Below, in pieces: positions 1,052-38,413 of a stretch of DNA of 38,413 bases; the first letter of the stretch is position 1; the number at the start of each line of letters is the position of its first letter. Both the position numbers and the translations under genes were made by a program. This stretch comes from a virus. The notes beneath the pieces are model-generated. The model searched no databases. It saw only the letters and a program-made list of their open reading frames with translations, and was not told the origin of the DNA. Location of the stretch: the IMG/VR virus record IMGVR_UViG_3300028364_000072, positions 1 to 38,413 of that record. One strand, given 5' to 3'.

Positions 1052-2368
1052 TTATACAAGTGTCAATAAAGCATACTTACCACTTTTATATAAAATACCA
1101 TGTGCGTTCATCCAAGAACCTGCACCCTTAGTATAAGATAGTTTTAAGTGTGTAGATGTTCCAACAACCATTCCATTACCATACATCTTAGGTGTATGTT
1201 CATGTCCAGTAATCATTTTAAGATTAAACTTATCAAAGCTCGAAGAAGAACCTCTTGCTCCGTTAAGACCTCTATGTCCATGATAACCAAGCTCAATACC
1301 TGATACTCTGTTTTCCTGATCTTCTATTAGGAAATTAAAGTTGCTCGGTACTTTTCCAATTAAGGATAAGGCTACTTCCAAAGATGCTTTTTTTGTATTC
1401 TCTACAATCGGTGCAAATAGTTTACTCGCAATAATAGAGTTATAACCATCTTTTAACCAGTTGTGCAAACCAAGATATGTTGTTAAAAATATATCATGAT
1501 TTGATTCAGATACTAGAAATTTTACATCAGGAAACTCTTTAGAAAAGAATTGTATTTCTGCCAATGTTTCCTCTAGCTCTTTCTTTAATACATGCCTTTT
1601 ATTAAAAACTGATCTAGCCTTTGATATAAAGTTCTTTTCTTCATGGTGGTTAATAGAGTGTCCATTAAACAAGTCATGAAATACAACTCTACGAGGGTTT
1701 AAGTCGTGTATCATTTGTATAGTTCTTTTTCTAGTAGTAGGACAAGTGTCGCCAGTATGCCAATCTCCGAGAATCAATGCCTCTGGTATTTGGGATAATA
1801 CTTTGCCACCTGAATAGTATTCTGTCAAGTAGTTAAACTTACCATTTTTAAGTGCTTCGACTTGGTGAATATCGAACTTCTTTCCGTTCTTAATCTCAAC
1901 GAATACAAAACCATACTGATGCTCTAAGTTAGCTTTACGCCCTTGTGCTGTGTGTAGTTTATAGTTTCCGTCTGTAAGTGAGCCTGTAGTTGCAAAGAAC
2001 CTAGGTAGTTTACTTGTGTTTGGGATAGACAAGTATCTTATCTTTGGACTTGGCAATATATACGAATGATCTCGCGAAAGTTTTTTGTTAAATCCAGTTA
2101 GAGGGTTAATCTGACTAGCTTTAATCATAGTATCATATATTTTAAGATTTGAATTAAGTGCTGTACCTGCTTTGTGCGGCACAATCAACTCAATACCTGA
2201 ATCAAATACAATAGGGTCAATTTCAATGTCATCTTTATTTTTACCATCCATTACGAAGGCTTTTATAACGGTAACACCATGCTGTTTTGCAAAGGCTTGT
2301 AGATTCTTTAATAGAATTTTATTAACCCTTGCACCACGCTGAATTGTTGTAATAATTTGCTTATTCAT
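1052..2368 (-). CDS. calcineurin-like metallophosphoesterase, copy A
   Basis: 438 residues. The C-terminal half carries the metallophosphoesterase motifs in order: GDWHTGD, then SESNHD (the usual GNHD position), GYHGHRG, and TGHEHTP near the C-terminus. Such enzymes bind two metals and cleave phosphodiester or phosphomonoester bonds; the substrate is unknown. The N-terminal 200 residues are phage-specific. It forms its own transcription unit, with promoter TGGTATAAT at 2398-2406 and a terminator at 1017. The homologue at 35295 is roughly half identical by eye, far more diverged than the flanking genes. Confidence 0.82.
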   Translation of the reverse strand: MNKQIITTIQRGARVNKILLKNLQAFAKQHGVTVIKAFVMDGKNKDDIEIDPIVFDSGIELIVPHKAGTALNSNLKIYDTMIKASQINPLTGFNKKLSRDHSYILPSPKIRYLSIPNTSKLPRFFATTGSLTDGNYKLHTAQGRKANLEHQYGFVFVEIKNGKKFDIHQVEALKNGKFNYLTEYYSGGKVLSQIPEALILGDWHTGDTCPTTRKRTIQMIHDLNPRRVVFHDLFNGHSINHHEEKNFISKARSVFNKRHVLKKELEETLAEIQFFSKEFPDVKFLVSESNHDIFLTTYLGLHNWLKDGYNSIIASKLFAPIVENTKKASLEVALSLIGKVPSNFNFLIEDQENRVSGIELGYHGHRGLNGARGSSSSFDKFNLKMITGHEHTPKMYGNGMVVGTSTHLKLSYTKGAGSWMNAHGILYKSGKYALLTLV

Positions 2369-2379
2369 AGTTATTTAGT

Positions 2380-2406
2380 TTAAGGTTATTTACCTTAATT
2401 ATACCA
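2380..2406 (-). promoter_or_regulatory. extended -10 promoter with overlapping dyad
   Basis: TGGTATAAT at 2406-2398 (minus). A 7-bp dyad, TTAAGGT and ACCTTAA separated by 5 bases (2380-2398), spans the predicted +1 near 2391, as expected for an operator. Here the 5' leader is about 22 bases, so this mRNA is not leaderless. Confidence 0.6.
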
Positions 2407-2420
2407 TATTGATATTTGAC

Positions 2421-2750
2421 TTATTTCTGTTTTGTGTTAAGTTTTAGCCACAGTTTTGCCACTGCTTCTATTGGTGTTTTACCATACGACCTGTTTTCTA
2501 CATAAAAATTAGAACCACAGCAGCCATAATCTTCTTCCCAAAACCCAGACTCCCATTCTTCTCCATCTACTCTTAATAAAAACTCTCTTGGTGATTTTAA
2601 ATTACCTCCACACTTATCTATAAGTTATTCTAAAGTAGGTGCTAAGTCTGGTAAGAAGATGTCATCAAGTGCTTGTGGGTCTTTTACCATCCAATTTCTA
2701 TCTATTGGAAACCCTGCGTCTTTTAATTGTTTTGCTAATTCATAATCCAT
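2421..2750 (-). pseudogene. small phage protein interrupted by an in-frame TAA
   Basis: Reading from ATG 2750 gives 109 codons ending at 2421, with one in-frame TAA at 2627-2625 (codon 42). The residues around it read LAPTLE-stop-LIDKCGG and later GKTPIEAVAKLWLKLN, which resembles a common small phage protein family with APTLSELIEACG and TPEEAVANLW motifs. A single G-to-T change (GAA to TAA) explains the stop. Downstream codons remain protein-like, so decay is recent or the base is an error. There is no equivalent in module B. Confidence 0.75.
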
Positions 2751-2751
2751 A

Positions 2752-2856
2752 TTATTTCTGTTTTAGGTTACAATCTTCACACAATCTTTTACCCTTATAA
2801 ATATAAATTGTATTTACTTCTTTCTTACACTCTACGCACTTATACATTGTTTTCAT
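2752..2856 (-). CDS. zinc-ribbon micropeptide, copy A
   Basis: 34 residues with two CxxC knuckles, YKCVECKKE and RLCEDCNLK, the classic four-cysteine zinc ribbon. Module B has a gene of exactly the same length at 36685 with the second knuckle (RCESCN) kept and the first partly lost. The 5' end overlaps the upstream gene by 17 bases. Role unknown; probably a small DNA- or protein-binding factor. Confidence 0.7.
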   Translation of the reverse strand: MKTMYKCVECKKEVNTIYIYKGKRLCEDCNLKQK

Positions 2857-2989
2857 TAATTATACTAATAAATTCTACAAATAACACACCAATACGATAT
2901 TCTTTGCTTTCCTCATATTTATTTTTAGTCATTTTAACACCACTTCTCATACCTTTTTCCCATTCTAATTGTTTTTCTGTTTTATTCAT
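2840..2989 (-). CDS. small charged hypothetical protein
   Basis: 49 residues, rich in Lys and Glu, ending in a hydrophobic stretch (RIGVLFVEFISII). The ATG at 2989 is chosen because it overlaps the end of the upstream gene by 8 bases. It overlaps the zinc-ribbon gene downstream. No family recognised, and no equivalent in module B. Confidence 0.55.
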   Translation of the reverse strand: MNKTEKQLEWEKGMRSGVKMTKNKYEESKEYRIGVLFVEFISIINENNV

Positions 2990-3220
2990 ATTCTTGTTTG
3001 ATTGCTTTAATAATCTCATTAATAGCCATTTTATATCCTTCTTTAAAATCTTCAACTTCTTCTTTTTCGTTTATTAATAATTTTTTGTTTGCAATCCCAT
3101 CACACTTCTCCCTCTCTTGTTGTACCATGTGTTCTGCGTATTGTTTGATAATCTGTATTTCCAAACAGTCTTTTTCATAATTAAATTCATCTGCAAGTAG
3201 TTTCTTAATTTTCTTTTCAT
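2982..3220 (-). pseudogene. helical small protein with an apparent 1-base deletion near its start
   Basis: The readable part (2982-3164 from a TTG) gives about 60 residues with EIQIIKQYAEHMVQQEREKC, a helical pattern also seen in the gene at 28905. Sensible codons continue upstream in the same frame to about 3215 (KKIKKLLADEFNYEKDC), but the only ATG, at 3220, is one base out of frame. One extra A in the A-run at 3214-3217 would give MKKKIKKLLADEFNYE. So the start is either broken, miscalled, or the TTG is used. Confidence 0.5.
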
Positions 3221-3229
3221 CGTGTTTTA

Positions 3230-3376
3230 TTATGCTGTTAAATTAACCACCTCAATAATCTCTGTATCTGGTGTTTCGTGTAATTGTCTAAATTTAATAA
3301 TTGCTTCTTGTTCACTCTTTGCGAGTATTTGTACTTGGTCTTTTTCAGAGGTACACATGTAGCTGTTTAATGTCAT
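3230..3376 (-). CDS. small conserved phage protein, copy A
   Basis: 48 residues beginning MTLNSYMCTSEKDQVQILAK. The gene at 36791 is nearly the same in its first 35 residues and identical in length, which confirms it is coding. The C-terminal ends differ. The start ATG lies 6 bases after the -10 hexamer at 3383-3388. Function unknown. Confidence 0.8.
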   Translation of the reverse strand: MTLNSYMCTSEKDQVQILAKSEQEAIIKFRQLHETPDTEIIEVVNLTA

Positions 3377-3382
3377 AAAACC

Positions 3383-3391
3383 ATTATTACA
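3383..3391 (-). promoter_or_regulatory. extended -10 promoter, predicted leaderless
   Basis: TGTAATAAT on the minus strand, then six bases, then ATG at 3376. The same arrangement, TGTAATAAT plus six bases plus ATG, occurs in module B at 37122-37130 before a different gene. Confidence 0.6.
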
Positions 3392-3412
3392 TTTACTGTA
3401 TTTTATGCAAGC

Positions 3413-3436
3413 AAAAAAGCCTTGACTTAACTAGGC
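3413..3436 (-). terminator. Rho-independent terminator
   Basis: Minus strand: GCCT, loop, AGGC, TTTTTT. It ends the operon 5227-3450. The same sequence recurs at 37151-37175. Confidence 0.75.
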
Positions 3437-3449
3437 TTTTGTGTTGTAT

Positions 3450-3614
3450 TTAAATTGAACCTGATTCTAATACTGGTTCACAATCTTTATGCTTTTCAAA
3501 AAATTCTGATACTTTAGAATCGGAATATAACATATGACCATTTGTTCCTGAATAAGAACCATACATAACTGATTCTTCGTGCTTATCGCATACTAAATAA
3601 TAATCTGTACTCAT
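3450..3614 (-). CDS. small acidic hypothetical protein
   Basis: 54 residues, beginning MSTDYYLVCDKHEESVMYGS; the CDKH and KDCEP segments could be metal ligands, but this is weak. The start overlaps the stop of the CHC2 gene as ATGA, typical of translational coupling. In module B this position is taken by an unrelated 64-residue gene. Confidence 0.65.
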   Translation of the reverse strand: MSTDYYLVCDKHEESVMYGSYSGTNGHMLYSDSKVSEFFEKHKDCEPVLESGSI

Positions 3615-4120
3615 TGCATTTCTATAACTGCAGTTTTAAAATCACAGTTGTTAATTTTCTGATAAACCTTAATGCTATCTGCAGACTCCTCACAAGAAAA
3701 GCATTTAACAAAGTTCCCTTTCTTATGATAACTTAAACTTGGCGACTTGTCATTATGCCACAAGCACTCTATATTATTACGCCCTATATCTAGCATTGTG
3801 TCAATAGGTACATCTTTTGCCCTTGCTATCATCTCGTCATTAATCTTTCCTATACCTGTTTGTAGTGGTGCGAACTTCACAGCATCTTCATGTAGCGTTT
3901 TTTTCAGGTACGAATAAATCTCTTTGCGTGCTTCTGGCTCTTTACCTAATTCTCGTAGCATATACTTTTCTGTAATTGGAACAGGTCTCTGGTTATCTAC
4001 CCAGTCTAGTTGTAGCTCGTTTACTATGCCACACTTATTGTATTTGTCTATGTAATAGAACTCTGCAATAGGTGATTTGTATTGAGGTGTCTTTACCCAG
4101 CGTTTTAGTTTAAGTTTCAT
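3611..4120 (-). CDS. primase-type CHC2 zinc-finger protein without TOPRIM, copy A
   Basis: 169 residues. The C-terminal 50 residues match the CHC2 zinc finger of DnaG-type primases: C119, H122, then C140 and C143 (ECLWHND...KCFSCEE), with the family's PSLSYH and YADSIKVY-like surroundings. The protein ends there; no TOPRIM catalytic domain follows, and none was found elsewhere in the window. Both copies stop at the same AVIEMQ end, so this is the natural length. It probably recognises primer sites and works with the helicase just upstream and with a host or unrecognised polymerising partner. The start ATG follows the helicase stop as TAATATG. Confidence 0.75.
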   Translation of the reverse strand: MKLKLKRWVKTPQYKSPIAEFYYIDKYNKCGIVNELQLDWVDNQRPVPITEKYMLRELGKEPEARKEIYSYLKKTLHEDAVKFAPLQTGIGKINDEMIARAKDVPIDTMLDIGRNNIECLWHNDKSPSLSYHKKGNFVKCFSCEESADSIKVYQKINNCDFKTAVIEMQ

Positions 4121-4121
4121 A

Positions 4122-5045
4122 TTAGTAGCCATCACCGAATTTTTCATGCTCAAATTCAATGTCATTATCTTCTACGAATCTAAAGTCTTTCATTTCTAAT
4201 TTAATAGAACCTGTTTGACCTGTACGTCTGTTAGCTTGTACCATACACAATGTTTTGTTTGTTGTCTTTGCTTCCTTGCTATCCATGTATGTTTCTCGCC
4301 ACAACATTATAATACCTGATGCCTCTTGAAAGATTGAACTTGAACCTTGCAATGCTTGTGTTGTTGGAATTTCTACAGGGTTATGTTTATTTATATGAAC
4401 CAACGTAACTATAACTATGTCAAGCTCTGCAGCAATCCATTTAAGCCCGTGCATAAGTTTACGAATCTTTAAATGCTCGTTATGATTATAGTTCTTTTCG
4501 TCTGCTTCCAAATAGGCAAGGTGATCTATAAACACAATATCTGAATTGTATTTAATAACTGCCTCGGTAATTCTATCTTCAACCCATTTTAAGTCTGGTA
4601 TCTTGTTTGTATAAGGTGCAAATGCTTTAGGTACTTTCATACCACGTTCTACCATAGTTTCTACAAGCTCTATTGCAGGTTGCTCTAATGGAATAATCAT
4701 AGGCTCATTGTGTGGCATACGTGTTACTAATTCCATCATCATTGCTGTTTTACCTGACTTAGGTGGTGCAGATAAGATATAGTGGTTCTTTCTATAAAAA
4801 CCACCTGCTTTTTTCCCCTCGTACCCTAGTAATTCGTCAAGACCAGTTATACCTGATGGTATTGGTACTGGTAGTGGTTTATTTCTTACCTCTTTTTCAA
4901 TTTCAGATAAAGAAATAACTACATCTTTTCCGTCATACTTTACCAAGTGTTCATTTGTTCTAGCTAGCATTTCTCTTTTTGTTTCAGAGTCTGCCATACC
5001 CTCAATCTTTGTTCTTAAATCGTTTAGTTTTGATTCTACTGACAT
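4122..5045 (-). CDS. RecA-fold replicative helicase (DnaB C-terminal-like), copy A
   Basis: 307 residues. Walker A is SAPPKSGKT (about 92-100), and Walker B is DIVFIDHLAYLE (about 169-180). A later QGSSSIFQEASGIIMLWRE segment and the NRRTGQTGSIKL motif fit DnaB-like helicases of the gp4/RepA type. The N-terminal part is short, with no full DnaB N-domain. With the CHC2 protein next to it, it should unwind the replication fork. It overlaps the upstream gene by 10 bases. Confidence 0.82.
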   Translation of the reverse strand: MSVESKLNDLRTKIEGMADSETKREMLARTNEHLVKYDGKDVVISLSEIEKEVRNKPLPVPIPSGITGLDELLGYEGKKAGGFYRKNHYILSAPPKSGKTAMMMELVTRMPHNEPMIIPLEQPAIELVETMVERGMKVPKAFAPYTNKIPDLKWVEDRITEAVIKYNSDIVFIDHLAYLEADEKNYNHNEHLKIRKLMHGLKWIAAELDIVIVTLVHINKHNPVEIPTTQALQGSSSIFQEASGIIMLWRETYMDSKEAKTTNKTLCMVQANRRTGQTGSIKLEMKDFRFVEDNDIEFEHEKFGDGY

Positions 5046-6385: not shown

Positions 6386-6411
6386 TACATATACTAATTC
6401 ATGCAACTTTG

Positions 6412-6482
6412 CTACCCTCCATGGAATCGAACCACGCTTCTCTGTACCAAAAACAGATGTCCTACCGATAGACGAGAGGGTA
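6412..6482 (-). tRNA. tRNA-Gln (anticodon UUG)
   Basis: A 71-nt cloverleaf reads: acceptor TACCCTC/GAGGGTA (7 perfect pairs), D stem GTCT/GGAC, anticodon stem TCTGT/ACAGA with loop TTTTGGT (anticodon TTG), and T arm CGTGG-TTCGATT-CCATG. The discriminator is G. The U1-A72 first pair and G73 are glutamine identity elements. CCA is not encoded. A promoter lies so close that the transcript should start about two bases before the mature 5' end. Confidence 0.93.
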
Positions 6483-22997: not shown

Positions 22998-24827
22998 TTA
23001 TAAAATTTGATTGTTTCCTTGTGCATTTTGTTCTACTGAGTTAATGGTTGGTATATCTCCTTGCCCCTGTGATGCCCCTAATTGGCTCTCTACGGGCTTT
23101 TTAGCTGATGGTGTACCTAATCCATATTCGACCATAGAAACTCCAGCTAGACGGGTAATTTCTTTTACAAGATTTGGTACTGTCTCTGGTGGGAATGCTC
23201 CTGACTGGTCTTGCATTGCCATTTGTAATAGTGAGTTTAATGTTTCAAGTTTAGCTGCTACATTCTCTTCTTCACCAGTGATATCAACACGAATATTGTC
23301 AATAGCTTCTTTCAAGTCTCCTTTTTTAATATCTAGGAATTGAATTTCTTTCTTTGGTAAGTTATCTTTAACTTCTGCAATCATTTCTTGATATGTCAAT
23401 GGGTCAAGTTCTCTTCCTGATTCCAAGATGTCCTGTACTTTTCTATTAGCAATAGATAAAGCGAATCGGTCATGAATAATATCAATCTCTTGTGCTGAGA
23501 ATCCAGCCTCAAGAATAAAGTCTTTATCAATACCTTTTGCAACTTCAGGTAGAATCCACTTAGTTATAACCTTAGATCCAAGGCAAATTCCTTTTTTTTC
23601 TCTTCTATAGTCAAAGATTGAACTTGCTTGTTTAGCTTGTAGCAATCCTAATCGGTATGAAAGCCCTGATGTAGTTTCTTCCCCTGTTACAGAGTCAAAT
23701 GCTGACATAGTAGCCTTATAAGAGTCTTGCCATGAATTAACAGCACTTGGTAAGAACTGTAATGAGTTAGATGTAGTATCTAGGTTCTTATATGTCTTAC
23801 CTGAACGTACTAGCAATGTATCACCACGTTTCTTTTCAGTTAGAACGTTTAAGTCACCAATCTCTTCATCATCAGTTACCATAAGTCCTATAGATGCAAG
23901 TTCTAATGCTCTACGTTCTAGAATCTTATATAGGTTTACTTCACCCTGTGCCTCTTTACCTTCTTCAACAACTCCTAAAGCCCAGCCTACTCCTAGACGT
24001 TTTTTACGACCATCATAGATATAATTTGATTCTTTAATTTCCTCTTTAAATAAAAGTACCCCTTTATTCTCTTCACCACCTCCAATTACAAAGTAATGTT
24101 GTAGTGAATAACCTTTTGGAGCTTCTTCATCTGATTCTAGCTCATCTTCCATGTATACAGCTTTAGAGAATTGACCTTCAACCTCTAGAACTTCAATTAC
24201 ATTAGTATTTCCCTTGTCTTTATCTTCTCGTTGCTGGTCTAGGGCTTCAAGTGCCTCATCAATAGCTTCATCAATCCAAATACCACGCTTTGATTCTAAT
24301 TCAAGTGACGTCATATAGTGAGATTCAACCTTAGCACCATTTTCAATATCAAATTGGTCAAATGCAATAGATAACCAGTTTACAATGGAAATGTCTAGCT
24401 TCCCGTTCTGATCGTAAGAACGTTTGAATAGAACATTACCATATCGTGATAACATTTCTCCATACTCATTAAGCGTTTCAGCAAAGTTCATTTCCTTAAA
24501 CATGTTGTGCATGTACTTTGTTGCAAGCATTGCCTGAACCTCAAACTCTGGACTTGTAGGTCGTAAGATAATGTCTTTAGTGTCAATATCTGTTGCTCTT
24601 ATCTCTAGGTCTACAATCTGATTAACAATATTAAAGAAAGGTTTCTTTCCCAACTCATCAGTATCACCTGATAAGTATTTAGATGCACTCATAAAGGTAA
24701 TAAATGCAATCTCTTTCCTTGTATCGTATTGATATTCAATAGAACTATTGTCTAGTTCATATGTATCAACATGTATTGGTTGTTCAAAATGCGACTTAAT
24801 GTCGTCAATCTCTCTAAATAGTTTCAT
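22998..24827 (-). CDS. portal protein
   Basis: 609 residues. The order of features matches podovirus portals: N-terminal helices, a FFNIVNQIVDLEIRATDIDT segment, LNEYGEMLSRYGNVLFKRSY in the wing, a long helical region with SLQFLPSAVNSWQDSYKATM, and a low-complexity C-terminal tail with GQGDIPTINSVEQNAQ. It forms the DNA entry pore and sits first in the head operon. The ATG at 24827 is preferred over the upstream TTG, which lies only two bases from the -10. Confidence 0.78.
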   Translation of the reverse strand: MKLFREIDDIKSHFEQPIHVDTYELDNSSIEYQYDTRKEIAFITFMSASKYLSGDTDELGKKPFFNIVNQIVDLEIRATDIDTKDIILRPTSPEFEVQAMLATKYMHNMFKEMNFAETLNEYGEMLSRYGNVLFKRSYDQNGKLDISIVNWLSIAFDQFDIENGAKVESHYMTSLELESKRGIWIDEAIDEALEALDQQREDKDKGNTNVIEVLEVEGQFSKAVYMEDELESDEEAPKGYSLQHYFVIGGGEENKGVLLFKEEIKESNYIYDGRKKRLGVGWALGVVEEGKEAQGEVNLYKILERRALELASIGLMVTDDEEIGDLNVLTEKKRGDTLLVRSGKTYKNLDTTSNSLQFLPSAVNSWQDSYKATMSAFDSVTGEETTSGLSYRLGLLQAKQASSIFDYRREKKGICLGSKVITKWILPEVAKGIDKDFILEAGFSAQEIDIIHDRFALSIANRKVQDILESGRELDPLTYQEMIAEVKDNLPKKEIQFLDIKKGDLKEAIDNIRVDITGEEENVAAKLETLNSLLQMAMQDQSGAFPPETVPNLVKEITRLAGVSMVEYGLGTPSAKKPVESQLGASQGQGDIPTINSVEQNAQGNNQIL

Positions 24828-24835
24828 ATACAACC

Positions 24836-24869
24836 ATTATACCATGGTATGGGTATTTCGATTTGTCAA
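24836..24869 (-). promoter_or_regulatory. late promoter of the portal-capsid operon
   Basis: TGGTATAAT at 24844-24836, eight bases before the ATG. TTGACA at 24869-24864 stands 22 bases from the hexamer, too far for normal sigma-70 pairing, but the same spacing is found at 20899. Confidence 0.72.
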
Positions 24870-24871
24870 AC

Positions 24872-24929
24872 AAAAAACCACTAAGGGTTTAATGTTTAGT
24901 AGCTTTTCTAGGTGATCGCCCGATTACCT
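24872..24929 (-). ncRNA. predicted 58-nt small RNA
   Basis: The promoter TGTTATAAT at 24944-24936 predicts +1 at 24929. From there the RNA begins exactly with the hairpin AGGU-A-AUC-GGGC-GAU-C-ACCU, continues through an unpaired stretch, and ends in AACC-CUUAGU-GGUU followed by a U-run. No ORF lies in it. The hairpin is complementary to a loop in the plus-strand RNA at 25066-25074. The terminator abuts the portal promoter. Confidence 0.55.
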
Positions 24930-24935
24930 GTCTTT

Positions 24936-24944
24936 ATTATAACA
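24936..24944 (-). promoter_or_regulatory. extended -10 promoter of the small RNA
   Basis: TGTTATAAT on the minus strand with no ATG at the predicted +1. It is divergent from the plus promoter at 24977, with 33 bases between them. Confidence 0.6.
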
Positions 24945-24976
24945 CACATTTAACAAAATCACTAACTTCAATACTA

Positions 24977-24985
24977 TGGTATAAT
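24977..24985 (+). promoter_or_regulatory. extended -10 promoter of the plus-strand RNA
   Basis: TGGTATAAT on the plus strand, identical to the consensus of the leaderless promoters. Predicted +1 at 24992 (no ATG there). Confidence 0.7.
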
Positions 24986-24991
24986 AGATAG

Positions 24992-25210
24992 GTAACACAA
25001 TTTAATATAGTGACAAGTGATGACGATGGGTTTAATTAATGAAACGTCTTAAAAGATACAGCTATTCGCCCGATACTGTACGGCATATATACCACTCTTG
25101 GTTATATGTTTAAGTGATTTAGCTTTTTTAGCTTACATCGAGTTTAAACAGATGTGTTGAGGTTAAAGTTTAGTACCAGTTCTGCTCTTTAGCAGGATTG
25201 GGTACTTTTA
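24992..25210 (+). ncRNA. predicted structured RNA of about 220 nt
   Basis: It runs from the predicted +1 to a terminator and has no ORF above a few codons. Helices: closing stem AACACA (24994-24999) with TGTGTT (25153-25158); TACAG-c-TAT / ATA-CTGTA with loop TCGCCCG (25057-25080); a 9-bp hairpin at 25084-25108 with loop ACTCTT; a long imperfect hairpin starting GTTTAA/TTAAAC (25108-25149) around AGCT/AGCT. It ends with GTACC..CTGC/GCAG..GGTAC and TTTT at 25173-25209. I know no family that matches. Confidence 0.6.
25173..25210 (+). terminator. Rho-independent terminator of the plus-strand RNA
   Basis: GTACC with GGTAC, inner CTGC with GCAG, then TTTTA. The 9-mer GGTTAAAGT occurs just before and just after it. 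Confidence 0.75.
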
Positions 25211-25246
25211 TACAAGAAAAGGTTAAAGTAATTAAGACTATAAGAT

Positions 25247-25555
25247 ATGAATATAGAGAGAAGGGAGTGTGGTTATAAGGATTGTAATGAAATCAATAAG
25301 GTTTACTATCATTTATATAAAAATGCAACAAAACATCTAACAATGAGATGTAAAATTCATGGTTATGTTACTATTCAATATGAAAATGGATTAGATATAC
25401 CTTGGTATGACCAGAGTAAACCAGAAATATTTGCAGAAATAAATGAAATAAAAAGAGTACAAAAACAAGCTATTAAACAAAAGCGATTGTCAAGGCGGAT
25501 CAATAATAATAATAAAAGAACAACAATGTCAGCAAGCCAACTACTGTCAATGTAG
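25247..25555 (+). CDS. plus-strand basic protein with a possible zinc site
   Basis: 102 residues. The N-terminal half has RECGYKDC and, 24 residues on, RCKIHGY, a CxxxC...CxxH arrangement of a small zinc module. The C-terminal third is very basic (KRVQKQAIKQKRLSRR), suggesting nucleic-acid binding. It is the only sizeable gene on this strand and would be reached by read-through from the structured RNA. A terminator overlaps its stop, which supports it being a real unit. No SD. Confidence 0.62.
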   Translation: MNIERRECGYKDCNEINKVYYHLYKNATKHLTMRCKIHGYVTIQYENGLDIPWYDQSKPEIFAEINEIKRVQKQAIKQKRLSRRINNNNKRTTMSASQLLSM

Positions 25556-25562
25556 TTTTTTT
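25539..25562 (+). terminator. Rho-independent terminator of the plus-strand gene
   Basis: AACTAC-7-GTAGTT followed by TTTTT; the TAG stop codon is inside the stem. Confidence 0.8.
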
Positions 25563-25576
25563 GTTTACCTTTATTA

Positions 25577-25602
25577 GAAAAAAACACTCTTAGGAGAGTA
25601 TT
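25577..25602 (-). terminator. Rho-independent terminator of the gene at 25590
   Basis: Minus strand: ACTCT-CCTA-AGAGT, then G and a T-run. It converges with the plus-strand terminator at 25539. Confidence 0.78.
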
Positions 25603-26423: not shown

Positions 26424-28025
26424 TTACAAGCCTCCAAACGTATTAACTTTAGCTTGACGTTTCTTATATCTCTTCCATTCTTTAACTGGATCTTTACTTG
26501 AATGAGCATAATCCTTTACAGCCCAAGCAATACATACAGCAATCAATAAGTCAAAGTGTCTAGTAGCTAATGCTTCACCATTGTTTTCTAGGTCGTTAAA
26601 GCTAAATGACTTCATCTCTCGTAGAACGTCAACATCATAAATCTTAATCAATCCCTCGTTAAATGCAGTTCTAAACTTATACAACATATCAGGTTTTGTC
26701 TTTGAGTTAGTATGCCATCCTAGTATTTTCTTAGGTGTAGCTGAATGCATAGCCATAGTTCTGTCCTGGTAAACATTAGAGTATATATTCTTCAATGCGT
26801 CAACTGTACTTAATCCAATACTATTACGTTCAGGAGCTACTAGACATCCACCATACTTGTTCCCAGCTCTTGCAATCTCATGTGCAAATATATCAGGAGC
26901 AATCCTATTGTTATGATACGTTGCCACAAGTTCACCTGTTGTCAAGTTAAACGCTGCAATAGTAGAACTATCTCCACCTCCCCCACCTGCAACATCAGCA
27001 CCAACATCATATCTATGACCTTGATAAAAGTCTTTCCATACCTTAAGTCCTGCTTCATTTCTAATAGGTTCAATTACGGTTTTTAGTTGCTCATCTACTA
27101 GGTCTAAGTCAAAGAACTTGTCATCCTCTCGGCTTGGGTCACACAAATACTCTGAAAACCAGTATTGACTATCCACATTTAATGCGATTACTTTCTCTAA
27201 TGGAAATCTATCAGCCCATGTAGGCTTTGCATCTACGAGCTTTTTACCATCATATACACAATCTGTAGCAATAGCCCATACCATTTCTGTAACTGAACCC
27301 TTACTCGCTATCATCTCTACGCTTCCATATTCTGAAATGTAGTTGGCTGTACATATGTAACTACCATCTGGACTCATACCATCTATAGCCTCCTCGATCT
27401 TATCCATTACAGATTGAGTTACCACGGCACTCTTGATACTTTCTCTATCCTCAATATCATCAAACCATATAAAATCAGGTCGATAGCTCTCAATACCTTG
27501 GTTATGTCCACGCTGTGTCTGTCCTACTGTACCAGCTGTGAGCTTAACATCTGACTTCATGGTAAAACTTCCCATAGTTTCCTCACGCTTCTTGTCACCC
27601 TCTTTGGCAAATAGATCACCGAATACAGGTTTAATAACCACTAAAGCGTTGTATACATCAGTTACCACCTGTTTAGAGTTCTTTAAATCCTTTGATAGTA
27701 CCTTATTGTACATACGTCTCACATCTCTTGAGTCACAAGCTAATACAAATACCATTACTAACTTCATGATCGCAGTCTTACCACAACCACGAAACCCCTT
27801 AATAAGGAAGTTTTGTTGCCCTAAGTATGACTTAATGTAATGCTTTGTCAATACCTCATGTAGTTCTACACTTTTAGAGTTAAATGAAGTAGGGAAAAAA
27901 TACCTTGTAAAGTATACATACTTCTTGTACATCATGTCAACATCATCTTTCTCTGTGAAGCTAAACAGTTCTCTTTTATCCGCACTTGACCCATCAAATA
28001 GTATGCTTTCTATAGTTTCATTCAT
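26424..28025 (-). CDS. terL: terminase large subunit
   Basis: 533 residues. The N-terminal ATPase has Walker A GFRGCGKT (77-84) and Walker B FIWFDDIED (about 190). The C-terminal RNase H-like nuclease has YDVGADVAGGGGGDSS with the first metal-binding Asp, a LVAPERNSIGLSTVDAL segment, and HFDLLIAVCIAWAV near the end. It pumps DNA into the prohead through the portal and cuts the concatemer. The ATG is exactly six bases after TATAAT. It forms a one-gene transcription unit. Confidence 0.9.
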   Translation of the reverse strand: MNETIESILFDGSSADKRELFSFTEKDDVDMMYKKYVYFTRYFFPTSFNSKSVELHEVLTKHYIKSYLGQQNFLIKGFRGCGKTAIMKLVMVFVLACDSRDVRRMYNKVLSKDLKNSKQVVTDVYNALVVIKPVFGDLFAKEGDKKREETMGSFTMKSDVKLTAGTVGQTQRGHNQGIESYRPDFIWFDDIEDRESIKSAVVTQSVMDKIEEAIDGMSPDGSYICTANYISEYGSVEMIASKGSVTEMVWAIATDCVYDGKKLVDAKPTWADRFPLEKVIALNVDSQYWFSEYLCDPSREDDKFFDLDLVDEQLKTVIEPIRNEAGLKVWKDFYQGHRYDVGADVAGGGGGDSSTIAAFNLTTGELVATYHNNRIAPDIFAHEIARAGNKYGGCLVAPERNSIGLSTVDALKNIYSNVYQDRTMAMHSATPKKILGWHTNSKTKPDMLYKFRTAFNEGLIKIYDVDVLREMKSFSFNDLENNGEALATRHFDLLIAVCIAWAVKDYAHSSKDPVKEWKRYKKRQAKVNTFGGL

Positions 28026-31614: not shown

Positions 31615-31623
31615 ATTATACCA
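31615..31623 (-). promoter_or_regulatory. extended -10 promoter, predicted leaderless
   Basis: TGGTATAAT, six bases (AAAGGA), ATG at 31608. It lies at the end of the nuclease gene upstream. Confidence 0.78.
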
Positions 31624-35294: not shown

Positions 35295-36602
35295 TTATGT
35301 AATCATTACATATAACATCTGATGTCCGTCTTTGTAAACAATACCATTAGCATGTGCATGAGCCGAAGGTCCTTTCATGTATCTTTGTTTTAAGGTACAG
35401 TTAGTTCCTACTGAAATTGCATTAGCAAGTCTTTCTGGCTTATGAGTATGTCCTGACATTTGCTTAAAGTTTTGCCTATCAAATTGAGCAATACTTCCTC
35501 TTGATCCTGATATACCACAATGTCCATGTGAGCCAATATTAATACCAGCTACTCTGAACTCGTCATTTTCTAATAAGAATTTCATATTCTTTGGTAGCTT
35601 TCCAATTGACTCAAGTGCTATTTGTAGAACAGGTTTCTTTTCTTTTAGAATTTCAGGTATTATCTTAGCAATAAACAAAAAGTTTTGTGGATTATACATA
35701 AAGTCTCCTGAATCAATGTATCTTCTTAAAAAAACATCGTGGTTACTTTCAGGAATAATAAACTTTATATTAGGAAATTCTTTTGCCATTCCAATTAAAT
35801 GCTTATATACCATTTTTAATTCTTTATCAAGTGAGTCTTTCTTCATTTGATAATTCTTTAACGACGATATAAAAGATTTAACTTCATGTCTATTAACGCT
35901 TGCTCCATCAAACACATCATGCAACGCACAATATTCTGGTTTCATATCTCTCAACTGATCGAGCGACATAGCATAAGCTTTTTTATCAAGAATACCTAAG
36001 TGCAAATCCCCAAGAACTATTGCTTTTGGTCGAGACTTTTCTACCTTTCCTTTATTGTAAAATTCAGTTAAGTAATTAAAGTTTCCATTCTTTTGGCAAT
36101 CAACTTGTAGTCCGTAGAACACTCTATTATTTACAATCCGCACATAGATAAAACCAAACTCATGTTGCTCTAATGCTTTTTGTCCTAATTGGGTATTCAA
36201 CTTATACGACCCTTCTGTTAATGCTCCCGTAGACATTAATGCTCTTGGGTGGTGTGATAAATTAGACAATGTTGTATATCTAATTTTAGTTGCTGGTAAA
36301 ATGTGAGAACATTCTCGTGGCAGTTTAGAATTTAAACCGTTAAAAGGTCTAACTTTCTGTGCTTGCACTTTCATATCTCTAAGACGTAAATTGCTATTAA
36401 GATTTTTATTATCTACAATAGAAAATCCTGCATCAAAAACTCTAGGGTCTACAATTTCATCATCTTTATATTTACCATTCATTACAAAGGTTAATAATCC
36501 CTCATCTGTTACATCATGAACTTTTTGAAAAGCCTTGATGTTCTTTAATAGGTTTTTATTAACTTTAGCTCCTTTTTGTACTGTTGTTATAATGTATTTC
36601 AT
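35295..36602 (-). CDS. calcineurin-like metallophosphoesterase, copy B
   Basis: 435 residues. LGDLHLG, PESNHDVF, GSHGHCGISG and SGHTHKPE are the metal-binding motifs, with a full D-x-H. About half identical to copy A by eye, with the same domain layout and the same single-gene unit (promoter 36658, terminator 35245). Substrate unknown. Confidence 0.82.
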   Translation of the reverse strand: MKYIITTVQKGAKVNKNLLKNIKAFQKVHDVTDEGLLTFVMNGKYKDDEIVDPRVFDAGFSIVDNKNLNSNLRLRDMKVQAQKVRPFNGLNSKLPRECSHILPATKIRYTTLSNLSHHPRALMSTGALTEGSYKLNTQLGQKALEQHEFGFIYVRIVNNRVFYGLQVDCQKNGNFNYLTEFYNKGKVEKSRPKAIVLGDLHLGILDKKAYAMSLDQLRDMKPEYCALHDVFDGASVNRHEVKSFISSLKNYQMKKDSLDKELKMVYKHLIGMAKEFPNIKFIIPESNHDVFLRRYIDSGDFMYNPQNFLFIAKIIPEILKEKKPVLQIALESIGKLPKNMKFLLENDEFRVAGINIGSHGHCGISGSRGSIAQFDRQNFKQMSGHTHKPERLANAISVGTNCTLKQRYMKGPSAHAHANGIVYKDGHQMLYVMIT

Positions 36603-36627
36603 AATTTATTAATTTAAAGGTTCAATA

Positions 36628-36666
36628 GATTTACGCTTTGTAAATCGTCTTAACCCTATTATACCA
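36628..36666 (-). promoter_or_regulatory. extended -10 promoter with hairpin in the leader
   Basis: TGGTATAAT at 36666-36658, +1 near 36651, and a 7-bp hairpin GATTTAC/GTAAATC (36628-36646) in a 48-base leader. The leader differs from copy A in length and sequence. Confidence 0.6.
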
Positions 36667-36684
36667 TTTTGATATTTGACAAGA

Positions 36685-36789
36685 TTACGCTTTCATGTTA
36701 CAGCTTTCACATCTTACTACTTCCTTTGTGTAGTATCTTGTTAGCCCATTTAGATTCTTGTTGCAGTCGTTAAATCTCTCTATTTTCAT
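36685..36789 (-). CDS. zinc-ribbon micropeptide, copy B
   Basis: 34 residues, MKIERFNDCNKNLNGLTRYY, then RCESCNMKA. Same length and place as the copy A ribbon, but the first knuckle has a single Cys. Confidence 0.6.
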   Translation of the reverse strand: MKIERFNDCNKNLNGLTRYYTKEVVRCESCNMKA

Positions 36790-36790
36790 G

Positions 36791-36937
36791 TTAAAAAGTT
36801 TTTTGGATTACCTCAATCAGTTCATCATCAGGTGTTTCATGTAACTTTCTGAATTTAATAATTGCCTCTTGTTCACTCTTTGCGAGTATCTGTACTTGGT
36901 CGTTTGCAGAGGTACACATGTAGCTGTTTAATGTCAT
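36791..36937 (-). CDS. small conserved phage protein, copy B
   Basis: 48 residues, MTLNSYMCTSANDQVQILAK; almost the same as 3230-3376 except its end. Joined to the next gene as TAACATG. Confidence 0.78.
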   Translation of the reverse strand: MTLNSYMCTSANDQVQILAKSEQEAIIKFRKLHETPDDELIEVIQKTF

Positions 36938-36938
36938 A

Positions 36939-37115
36939 TTAATTATTTACTTCTGTTAAAAATCCAGTATGTAACATAAAAGCTAATTCTTTACCTGCAA
37001 TGTTTTCATTATAATGGTCGAAATTAGCTAAGATTATATTACCCTGTTTATTTGATTCAAAAATATGCCCCTTTTCGTATTTACCAAAACTACGGTTTAA
37101 TTTATATTTATTCAT
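36939..37115 (-). CDS. small hypothetical protein, module B only
   Basis: 58 residues beginning MNKYKLNRSFGKYEKGHIFE. A beta-rich look with FDHYNENIAGKELAF. ATG is six bases after AATAAT in TGTAATAAT. Module A has no equivalent. Confidence 0.62.
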   Translation of the reverse strand: MNKYKLNRSFGKYEKGHIFESNKQGNIILANFDHYNENIAGKELAFMLHTGFLTEVNN

Positions 37116-37121
37116 AAGTCT

Positions 37122-37130
37122 ATTATTACA
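37122..37130 (-). promoter_or_regulatory. extended -10 promoter, predicted leaderless
   Basis: TGTAATAAT, six bases (AGACTT), ATG at 37115. Same promoter as at 3383. Confidence 0.6.
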
Positions 37131-37150
37131 TTTACTGTATTTTATGCAAG

Positions 37151-37175
37151 AAAAAAAGCCTTGACTTAACTAGGC
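37151..37175 (-). terminator. Rho-independent terminator
   Basis: Same GCCT/AGGC hairpin and T-run as at 3413. Confidence 0.75.
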
Positions 37176-37195
37176 TTTTGTGGTGTATTATATAT

Positions 37196-37237
37196 TCATT
37201 CATCTGGGTGCTGACCCATTGGTTTTTCTTGTTTCAT
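37196..37237 (-). CDS. possible 13-residue peptide
   Basis: MKQEKPMGQHPDE, following the 37249 gene's stop after a short AT-rich spacer. Low certainty; it fits the dense packing of this operon. Confidence 0.28.
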   Translation of the reverse strand: MKQEKPMGQHPDE

Positions 37238-37248
37238 ATTATTTATTA

Positions 37249-37443
37249 TTAGTTATTAATTGTTTTTGTTATTCTAAATAAAACTATTGATATTTGCCAT
37301 TTCCAAAAATTTATAAAGATAGACCACTCAGTAAAGTCTGGTAGTTCTTCATAATTAAAATTGATTCCAAAGCCTCTATCTTTTAATCCGCAAAATCTTC
37401 CTAATTTAGTTATTTCAAATCTTTTTCTTTTTGTTGGTTTCAT
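37249..37443 (-). CDS. small basic/aromatic hypothetical protein
   Basis: 64 residues; a basic start (MKPTKRKRFEITKLGRFCGL) and an aromatic hydrophobic strand region (WSIFINFWKWQISIVLFRI). It takes the place that 3450-3614 has in module A. Function unknown. Confidence 0.6.
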   Translation of the reverse strand: MKPTKRKRFEITKLGRFCGLKDRGFGINFNYEELPDFTEWSIFINFWKWQISIVLFRITKTINN

Positions 37444-37444
37444 A

Positions 37445-37954
37445 TTATTGCATTTCTATAACTGCGGTCTTAAAATCACAGTTGTTAATTTTCTGATAAA
37501 CCTTTATGCTATCTGCATACTCATCACAAGCAAAGCATTTAACAAAGTTCCCTTTTTTATGATAACTTAAACTTGGCGACTTGTCATCATGCCACAAGCA
37601 CTCTATATTATTACGCCCTATATCTAACAGATTGTCAATAGGTACATCTTTTGCCCTTGCTATCATAGCGTCATTAATTTTTCCTATACCTGTTTGTAGT
37701 GGTGCAAACTTTTTAGCTAACACGTTCTTTGTTAAATTCAAATAAGAGTAAATGTCTTTTCGTGCTTCAGGGTCTTTCCCTAACTCTCGGAGCATAAACT
37801 TATCCGTAATTGGACGTGGTCGTTTACTTTCTAACCAATCTAATTGTAGCTCATTTACTATGCCACACTTTCCGTATTTGTCCATATAGAAGAACTCAGC
37901 TATTGGTACATTATATTGGATTGAATTTATCCAGCGTTTAACTTTTAGAATCAT
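37445..37954 (-). CDS. primase-type CHC2 zinc-finger protein, copy B
   Basis: 169 residues from ATG 37954 (TAATAATATG junction with the helicase). The C-terminal CHC2 region (ECLWHDD, KCFACDE) matches copy A, with C/H/C/C all present and again no TOPRIM. Differences from copy A concentrate in the N-terminal domain. Confidence 0.75.
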   Translation of the reverse strand: MILKVKRWINSIQYNVPIAEFFYMDKYGKCGIVNELQLDWLESKRPRPITDKFMLRELGKDPEARKDIYSYLNLTKNVLAKKFAPLQTGIGKINDAMIARAKDVPIDNLLDIGRNNIECLWHDDKSPSLSYHKKGNFVKCFACDEYADSIKVYQKINNCDFKTAVIEMQ

Positions 37955-37958
37955 ATTA

Positions 37959-38413
37959 TTACCCGTCATAGTCATCTTCATAACTAAAGGTTATATTGTT
38001 ATCTTCTAAAAATCTAAAGTTCTCCATCTTTAATTTAATCGACCCTGTTTGTCCTGTACGTCTGTTCGCTTGAACCATACATAATGTCTTGTTAGATGTC
38101 TTTAGTTCCTTTTTATCCATGTATGTTTCTCGCCACAACATTATAATACCTGATGCCTCCTGAAAGATTGAACTTGAACCTTGTAAGGATTGTGTTGTTG
38201 GAATTTCTACAGGATTATGTTTGTTAATGTGTACTAATGTAACAATAACAATATCAAGCTCTGCAGCAATCCATTTAAGCCCGTGCATAAGTTTACGAAT
38301 CTTTAAATGCTCATTATGATTATAGTTCTTTTCGTCTGCTTCCAAATAGGCAAGGTGATCTATAAACACAATATCTGAATTGTATTTAATAACTGCCTCG
38401 GTAATTCTATCTT
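37959..38413 (-). CDS. RecA-fold helicase, copy B (cut by window edge)
   Basis: The C-terminal part only, from just before the Walker B (FIDHLAYLEADEKNYNHNEH) to the end. Almost the same as copy A until the last 40 residues, where the two diverge (ENFRFLEDNNITFSYEDDYD). Confidence 0.82.
   Translation of the reverse strand, partial: DRITEAVIKYNSDIVFIDHLAYLEADEKNYNHNEHLKIRKLMHGLKWIAAELDIVIVTLVHINKHNPVEIPTTQSLQGSSSIFQEASGIIMLWRETYMDKKELKTSNKTLCMVQANRRTGQTGSIKLKMENFRFLEDNNITFSYEDDYDG

Follow-up and report, generated by a model that had tools for sequence, protein, structure and literature searches.

Two predicted divergent RNAs between the portal and terminase genes of a phage share two complementary matches and may form a trans-acting antisense pair

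We analysed a virus record of 38,413 bases, which was searched over its full length (the window). The region of interest is flanked by the portal gene and the large terminase gene, both of them encoded on the minus strand. Between these genes, promoter and terminator patterns predict two RNAs that are transcribed away from each other, a small RNA on the minus strand and a long RNA on the plus strand. The features of the region are as follows, where L004 denotes a related viral contig:

22998-24833, minus: portal gene (weak matches to the PHROGs connector and Pfam SU10-portal)
24836-24844, minus: portal gene promoter TGGTATAAT, directly after the small RNA; the portal ATG is nearly leaderless
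24872-24929, minus: predicted small RNA, 58 nt, with a 5' hairpin, a linker, an intrinsic terminator hairpin and a U-run
24878-24902, minus: small RNA terminator hairpin, 7 pairs with an 11-nt loop; U-run at 24877-24872
24910-24929, minus: small RNA 5' hairpin with loop GGGC, from the fold and the pair comparison with L004
24936-24944, minus: extended -10 promoter of the small RNA, TGTTATAAT; the same TGTTATAAT is found in L004
24977-24985, plus: extended -10 promoter of the long RNA, TGGTATAAT; TATGGTATAAT is also found in L004
24992-25210, plus: predicted long RNA, ~219 nt, from promoter and terminator patterns, divergent from the small RNA
25057-25080, plus: long RNA hairpin UACAG-C-UAU-[UCGCCCG]-AUA-CUGUA, from the changes in L004 and a consensus fold
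25134-25156, plus: 3' hairpin of the long RNA with the 11-nt loop GAGUUUAAACA; invariant in L004, hence without covariation
25172-25206, plus: long RNA terminator hairpin (-18.3 kcal/mol), followed by UUUU
25247-25555, plus: 102-codon ORF after the long RNA terminator, without an extended -10 promoter of its own
26424-28025, minus: large terminase gene

The RNA starts were set seven bases after TATAAT, following the virus's own promoters. The extended -10 pattern TGnTATAAT occurs 21 times in the window, 17 times on the gene-dense minus strand and four times on the plus strand. We chose this spacing because at 7 of the 21 sites an ATG lies exactly six bases 3' of TATAAT. Minus-strand promoters of this kind were found at 31623, 28618, 28463, 28040, 20907, 12689 and 9918. 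Given this distance the messages of these genes are probably leaderless, so that leaderless messages are probably common in this phage and Shine-Dalgarno sequences rarely used. At most gene starts a Shine-Dalgarno site is absent and the typical start reads TAATT-ATG-AA. Elsewhere in the window we encountered a tRNA-Gln gene (anticodon TTG, 6411-6482, minus strand). Similar proteins are encoded near both ends of the record (1052-5045 and 35295-38369): proteins of 435 and 438 aa, CHC2 primase-like proteins and DnaB_C helicases. Their likeness was judged from the translations, with the helicases assigned by Pfam, and the paired proteins represent either a duplicated replication module or an assembly oddity.

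By the promoter spacing rule the small RNA begins at 24929 with AGGUAAUCGGG and ends at 24872. The first-pass annotation of this DNA had predicted, from the minus-strand promoter at 24944-24936, a 58-nt RNA that starts with a hairpin and ends at a terminator adjoining the portal promoter. Our analysis agrees in each respect: the predicted RNA from 24929 to 24872 has exactly 58 nt, and both hairpins (24910-24929 and 24878-24902) are seen in the fold. The stretch of 61 nt from 24932 to 24872 folds into these two hairpins with a z of -2.49, and 5 of 200 shuffles folded as well. A pattern scanner had passed over the terminator since its 11-nt loop exceeds the scanner limit of 8; folding reveals it. 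In L004 the small RNA is again 58 nt long, lies at the same position and is identical at 47 of 58 bases.

The fold of the long RNA as a whole is no better than that of shuffles (z -0.85). Its hairpin at 25057-25080 was recovered unaided by a consensus fold of the two viral sequences. The core of the long RNA (25024-25167) is identical to L004 at 135 of 144 positions (94%), and in a sliding comparison with L004 stretches of 144 bases that are equally conserved make up 0.9% of the aligned 4.7 kb. For the promoter gap between the RNA starts we counted 41 identical bases out of 62. Rfam 15 reported only a tRNA in the window at the gathering threshold, and for 24700-25600 nothing other than four unrelated weak hits even at E 10. 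Promoters and terminators of both RNAs are present as sequence patterns. Both RNAs likely exist and are structured.

To find relatives 2.9 million viral contigs were scanned with the portal and the terminase. Two contigs are the same virus (L003 and L007, 100%), two are 98% identical but lack the region (L005 and L006), and the others are distant, apart from L004. The portal of L004 is about 78-80% identical (1419/1815) and the contig keeps both RNAs. As it is the one informative relative, all covariation comes from two sequences. We searched 57 sources, drawn from 68 loci plus the window with duplicates and overlapping stretches left out, with a covariance model of the small RNA. The model matched this virus and L004 only, and the next best match had an E of 3.5.

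None of the eight pairs of the long RNA hairpin at 25057-25080 is broken in L004 and two show Watson-Crick double changes (C-G to U-A and U-A to C-G). Two such double changes were obtained in 4 of 200,000 random placements of the nine long-RNA substitutions over the 144 positions. For the small RNA 5' hairpin we observed one double change (U-A to C-G), the repair of an A-C mismatch that interrupts the stem in this virus, one G-U pair and one broken pair (G-C to U-U). In the terminator stem of the small RNA one U-G pair became C-G and no pair was broken. We consider the hairpins well supported by this comparison of two sequences.

Two stretches of 9 nt are complementary between the RNAs:

24916-24924, minus: match 1 on the small RNA, AUCGGGCGA, complementary to UCGCCCGAU
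25066-25074, plus: match 1 on the long RNA, UCGCCCGAU, with seven bases in the loop UCGCCCG
24885-24893, minus: match 2 on the small RNA, AUUAAACCC, wholly inside the 11-nt terminator loop
25028-25036, plus: match 2 on the long RNA, GGGUUUAAU, between GACG (25022-25025) and CGUC (25045-25048)

The first of these was already reported in the first-pass annotation, which placed a 9-mer at 24916-24924 and 25066-25074 and described seven of its bases as exposed in a loop of the long RNA. Both statements hold: TCGCCCGAT is found exactly twice in the window, at these positions and both times on the plus strand (chance expectation 0.02), and the loop is UCGCCCG. The second match (AUUAAACCC with GGGUUUAAU) had been overlooked. 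The complementary runs between both RNAs comprise two of 9 nt, two of 8 nt and one of 7 nt; the 8-nt and 7-nt runs are AT-rich and fall below 8 in L004. The 5' element of the small RNA would pair with the 3' element of the long RNA and its 3' element with the 5' one, thus both duplexes can coexist. As a control the long RNA was shuffled 5000 times with its dinucleotides preserved. A run of 9 or more arose in 383 shuffles, two such runs in 11, and two in antiparallel-compatible order in 5. Since we designed this test with knowledge of the second match, it flatters the result somewhat. Once match 1 is there, a further 9-nt run at some place is no great rarity (the same 383 of 5000).

In match 1 the GGGC loop faces the UCGCCCG loop and in match 2 the small RNA contributes its terminator loop, so that complementary sequences lie in hairpin loops of both RNAs, as in kissing-loop pairs. 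The small-RNA side of match 2 is fully unpaired (opening cost 0.0 kcal/mol), and the other three sites in this virus cost 2.2-3.9 kcal/mol to open. Because of the A-C mismatch in the stem and a loop of GGGC alone, the 9-mer of match 1 is not fully exposed in the small RNA. The predicted duplex energies in this virus are -15.6 kcal/mol for match 1 and -9.3 kcal/mol for match 2. AUUAAACCC includes UUAA, a sequence that fits the YUNR motif, so named in PMC4485353.

The two matches fared differently in L004. Match 2 pairs at 9 of 9 positions in both viruses and at the same places, with the end pair changed on both sides from A-U to U-A, that is GGGUUUAA(U/A) against (A/U)UUAAACCC. Random placement of the long-RNA substitutions kept it whole in 2537 of 200,000 trials; the double change concerns a terminal pair and is worth just 0.2-0.3 kcal/mol relative to the mixed pairs. 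For match 1 we found three of the nine positions changed, leaving six unchanged pairs, two G-U pairs and one C-U mismatch. The corresponding energies in L004 are -11.2 kcal/mol for match 1 and -9.2 kcal/mol for match 2. Duplexes mixed from both viruses reached -11.6 and -15.2 kcal/mol for match 1 and -9.0 kcal/mol for match 2, and the L004 small RNA with the long RNA of the window (-15.2) is a stronger match 1 than L004's own pair (-11.2). The first-pass annotation had suggested co-variation of the two 9-mers in relatives as a check, and a change in one of them without the other as evidence against the idea. Its pair does not covary, and weakens to 8 of 9 standard pairs in L004, which in part speaks against the idea by that measure; match 2, of which it did not speak, stays intact. 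We conclude from these alignments that match 1 retains a G/C-rich core (GGGCG with CGCCC) by conservation and shows no coevolution, and that match 2 is moderately supported. The kissing-type control in trans that had been proposed gains two collinear 9-nt matches and compensated hairpins in L004, and loses the covariation of the pair originally named. The complementarities and their order, the promoter and terminator patterns and the conserved hairpins with their compensatory changes are all read directly from the sequences. Overall the two RNAs probably do pair.

As a target of such pairing we identified a short reading frame within the long RNA:

25039-25113, plus: candidate 24-codon ORF, MKRLKRYSYSPDTVRHIYHSWLYV, open in both viruses

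Match 2 stops two bases short of its AUG at 25039 and match 1 covers its codons 10-12. The start context TTTAATTAATGAAA is like the other, Shine-Dalgarno-free starts of the phage. The predicted 24-aa peptide is basic, without the hydrophobic character of the Fst/Ldr type, and Pfam and NCBIfam gave no match for it. Three of the seven substitutions relative to L004 fall on third codon positions, which is no excess, so the coding capacity of the candidate ORF is unproven. The 54 bases 3' of the ORF are even more conserved, with one change relative to L004, and the ORF does not explain this. A nine-codon upstream ORF (25010-25039, plus strand) starts with GTG here and with ATG in L004; its stop overlaps the AUG at 25039 (UAAUG) and might couple translation. 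The invariant 3' hairpin carries the self-complementary loop GUUUAAAC; this loop could bind another copy of itself, or else GGGUUUAA upstream of the AUG. We also weighed a hydrophobic frame at 25053-25157, which ends in YIEFKQMC and is similar in L004, as a possible toxin and rejected it for now: the two viruses share no start codon for it, L004 has an extra in-frame stop, and Pfam and NCBIfam gave no match. The 102-codon ORF, whose start lies 37 bases past the end of the long RNA and which might be expressed by read-through, had no match in Pfam, PHROGs, NCBIfam or PADLOC. Both target sequences, with at most one mismatch each and in order within 120 nt, occur nowhere else on either strand of the window. 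The timing of head genes and replication, which had been named as possible targets, are thus unsupported. The third proposal, a plus-strand protein, is the likeliest of the three, with the 24-codon ORF inside the long RNA taking the place of the 102-codon ORF.

The reading that we favour, with a probability of roughly 0.45, is that the small RNA acts in trans as a two-loop antisense regulator that blocks translation of the 24-codon ORF. Its terminator loop AUUAAACCC would pair with GGGUUUAAU just before the AUG at 25039, and AUCGGGCGA of its 5' hairpin with the UCGCCCG loop, which falls on codons 10-12 of this ORF. The two contacts would jointly clamp the start region in such a way that the ribosome could not begin on this ORF, and the duplex may also mark the long RNA for decay. 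Since the virus lacks Shine-Dalgarno sites, pairing before the AUG would be the obvious way to block the start. The divergent starts are about 60 bases apart, and hence the ratio of the RNAs would depend on how strong the promoters and how stable the RNAs are, as it does in type I toxin-antitoxin and plasmid copy-control systems. This reading presumes that both RNAs are made and bind each other, that the ORF is translated and that its peptide has some effect.

Several other explanations have to be weighed against it. It is conceivable, if rather unlikely, that the long RNA has a function of its own as a non-coding RNA, for example in packaging or in binding a host or phage protein, with the small RNA as its antagonist or partner and the ORF accidental. 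The 94% identity of the core including the single change past the ORF, the invariant 3' hairpin with its self-complementary loop and the position between the portal and terminase genes would suit such a role, but the Rfam result for 24700-25600 offers nothing in its favour, and the location of match 2 just before an AUG would become a coincidence. Antisense RNA can also act by transcriptional attenuation, as for pT181. On this view the 102-codon gene would have the long RNA as its attenuated leader, with read-through of the terminator at 25172-25206 under the control of the small RNA, as in pIP501 and pT181, which we judge quite unlikely. Such a role would fit the short distance of 37 bases between the end of the long RNA and an ORF that has no extended -10 promoter of its own, as well as the two complementary loop pairs that are also used by pIP501 according to PMC4485353. 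However, no upstream stretch of at least 5 bases in the long RNA is complementary to the 5' arm of the terminator, and hence the mutually exclusive antiterminator of pIP501 and pT181 is not visible here; moreover, the L004 contig ends before the 102-codon gene. The repeats GGGTTTAAT and TCGCCCGAT could be DNA sites, either paired repressor operators at the divergent promoters or the remains of a duplication, and they do agree in orientation and order on the plus strand, with spacings of 31 and 38 bases. We regard this as improbable, as both sites are transcribed, one of them within the loop of a terminator, the intervening bases do not align between the repeats, and the changes in L004 preserve RNA hairpins (two plus one double changes) that operators would not need. 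To the same small degree we would credit two real but independent RNAs with a chance complementarity, for which match 1 decays in L004 without compensation and one 9-nt run is found in 383 of 5000 shuffles, but two collinear runs arose in just 5 of them and match 2 is retained with a double change.

The favoured antisense pair can be set beside several known systems. ColE1 RNAI/RNAII, R1 CopA/CopT and hok/sok share with it kissing-loop recognition, a loop of the U-turn type and the control of a translated leader; unlike here, their antisense RNAs are encoded on the opposite strand of the target with full-length complementarity. The anatomy is closest to par of pAD1 (RNA I/RNA II, Fst), a type I toxin-antitoxin system in which, according to PMC7472228, a long RNA of ~230 nt with a short ORF is controlled by an antisense RNA of ~40 nt. 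Shared with par as described there are a short antisense RNA, a long RNA of similar size with a small ORF, a terminator loop as contact, and direct repeats that are read in opposite directions and so create trans complementarity at the start region. We find such repeats here as well, with the complementarity around the start codon of the small ORF, and complementarity of an antisense RNA to the region where translation of a small ORF starts is a general type I toxin-antitoxin feature. In par the promoters are convergent and share a bidirectional terminator (PMC7472228), whereas here they are divergent (24977 plus, 24944 minus) and have separate terminators. Furthermore the peptide is basic and not of the Fst type, and Pfam, NCBIfam and Rfam gave no match. 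As two defining par features are absent, we describe the pair as working like par and the other systems and not as a member. Divergent neighbouring genes with separate terminators and trans complementarity to the 5' part of an mRNA are known from tisB/istR-1, which has one 21-nt site at the ribosome standby site (PMC4147584), whereas here two 9-nt loop sites surround the AUG. pIP501 RNAII/RNAIII likewise uses two loop pairs that are complementary between antisense and target; its antisense RNA lies opposite the target and acts by transcriptional attenuation (PMC4485353), while in this phage the two RNAs are encoded side by side and we saw no antiterminator. The pair itself was not found in print among open-licence PMC papers, title listings and the starts of abstracts. 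An undescribed type, namely a phage-borne divergent two-loop antisense pair that uses apical and terminator loops to control a tiny ORF in an often leaderless virus lacking Shine-Dalgarno sites, is a tentative and somewhat doubtful interpretation.

We then considered the wider distribution. Among named phages and plasmids there are no close DNA relatives, and the terminase relatives are distant (36 records, none covering 80% of the query). In bacterial genomes a search with the portal alignment led to 138 pattern stretches and to no confirmed relative. A separate pattern for the ORF start had a single match (L070), which was judged to be chance because only the 21 searched bases match, and a match to the 3'-hairpin pattern (L069) was likewise judged to be chance. 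With degenerate patterns, whether for the hairpin, for the start region or for the small RNA, we detected only this virus and L004. We also inspected the 1500 bases before the portal match in 43 portal relatives (L027-L068 and L008, from 45 loci minus L004 and L026, which is the same virus): CGGGCG/CGCCCG and AAACCCTT/GGGTTTAA gave a few isolated matches and no pair. One of these relatives, L008, whose terminase is 63% identical, has a different RNA-like sequence before the portal (3240-3725), with an extended -10 promoter and an RNA of ~130 nt with a terminator. Two 9-nt matches connect it, in compatible order, to a stretch upstream (19 of 1500 shuffles do so), with both on the same strand. 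From this likeness the arrangement might be a fast-evolving standard element of the phage group.

Should the favoured reading prove true, a compact RNA switch lies between the portal and terminase genes of an uncultivated phage lineage. The switch would combine features of plasmid copy-control RNAs and of type I toxin-antitoxin systems, and a terminator loop would double as a recognition site. It would also show antisense control at starts that lack a Shine-Dalgarno sequence and offer no obvious target apart from the bases preceding the AUG.
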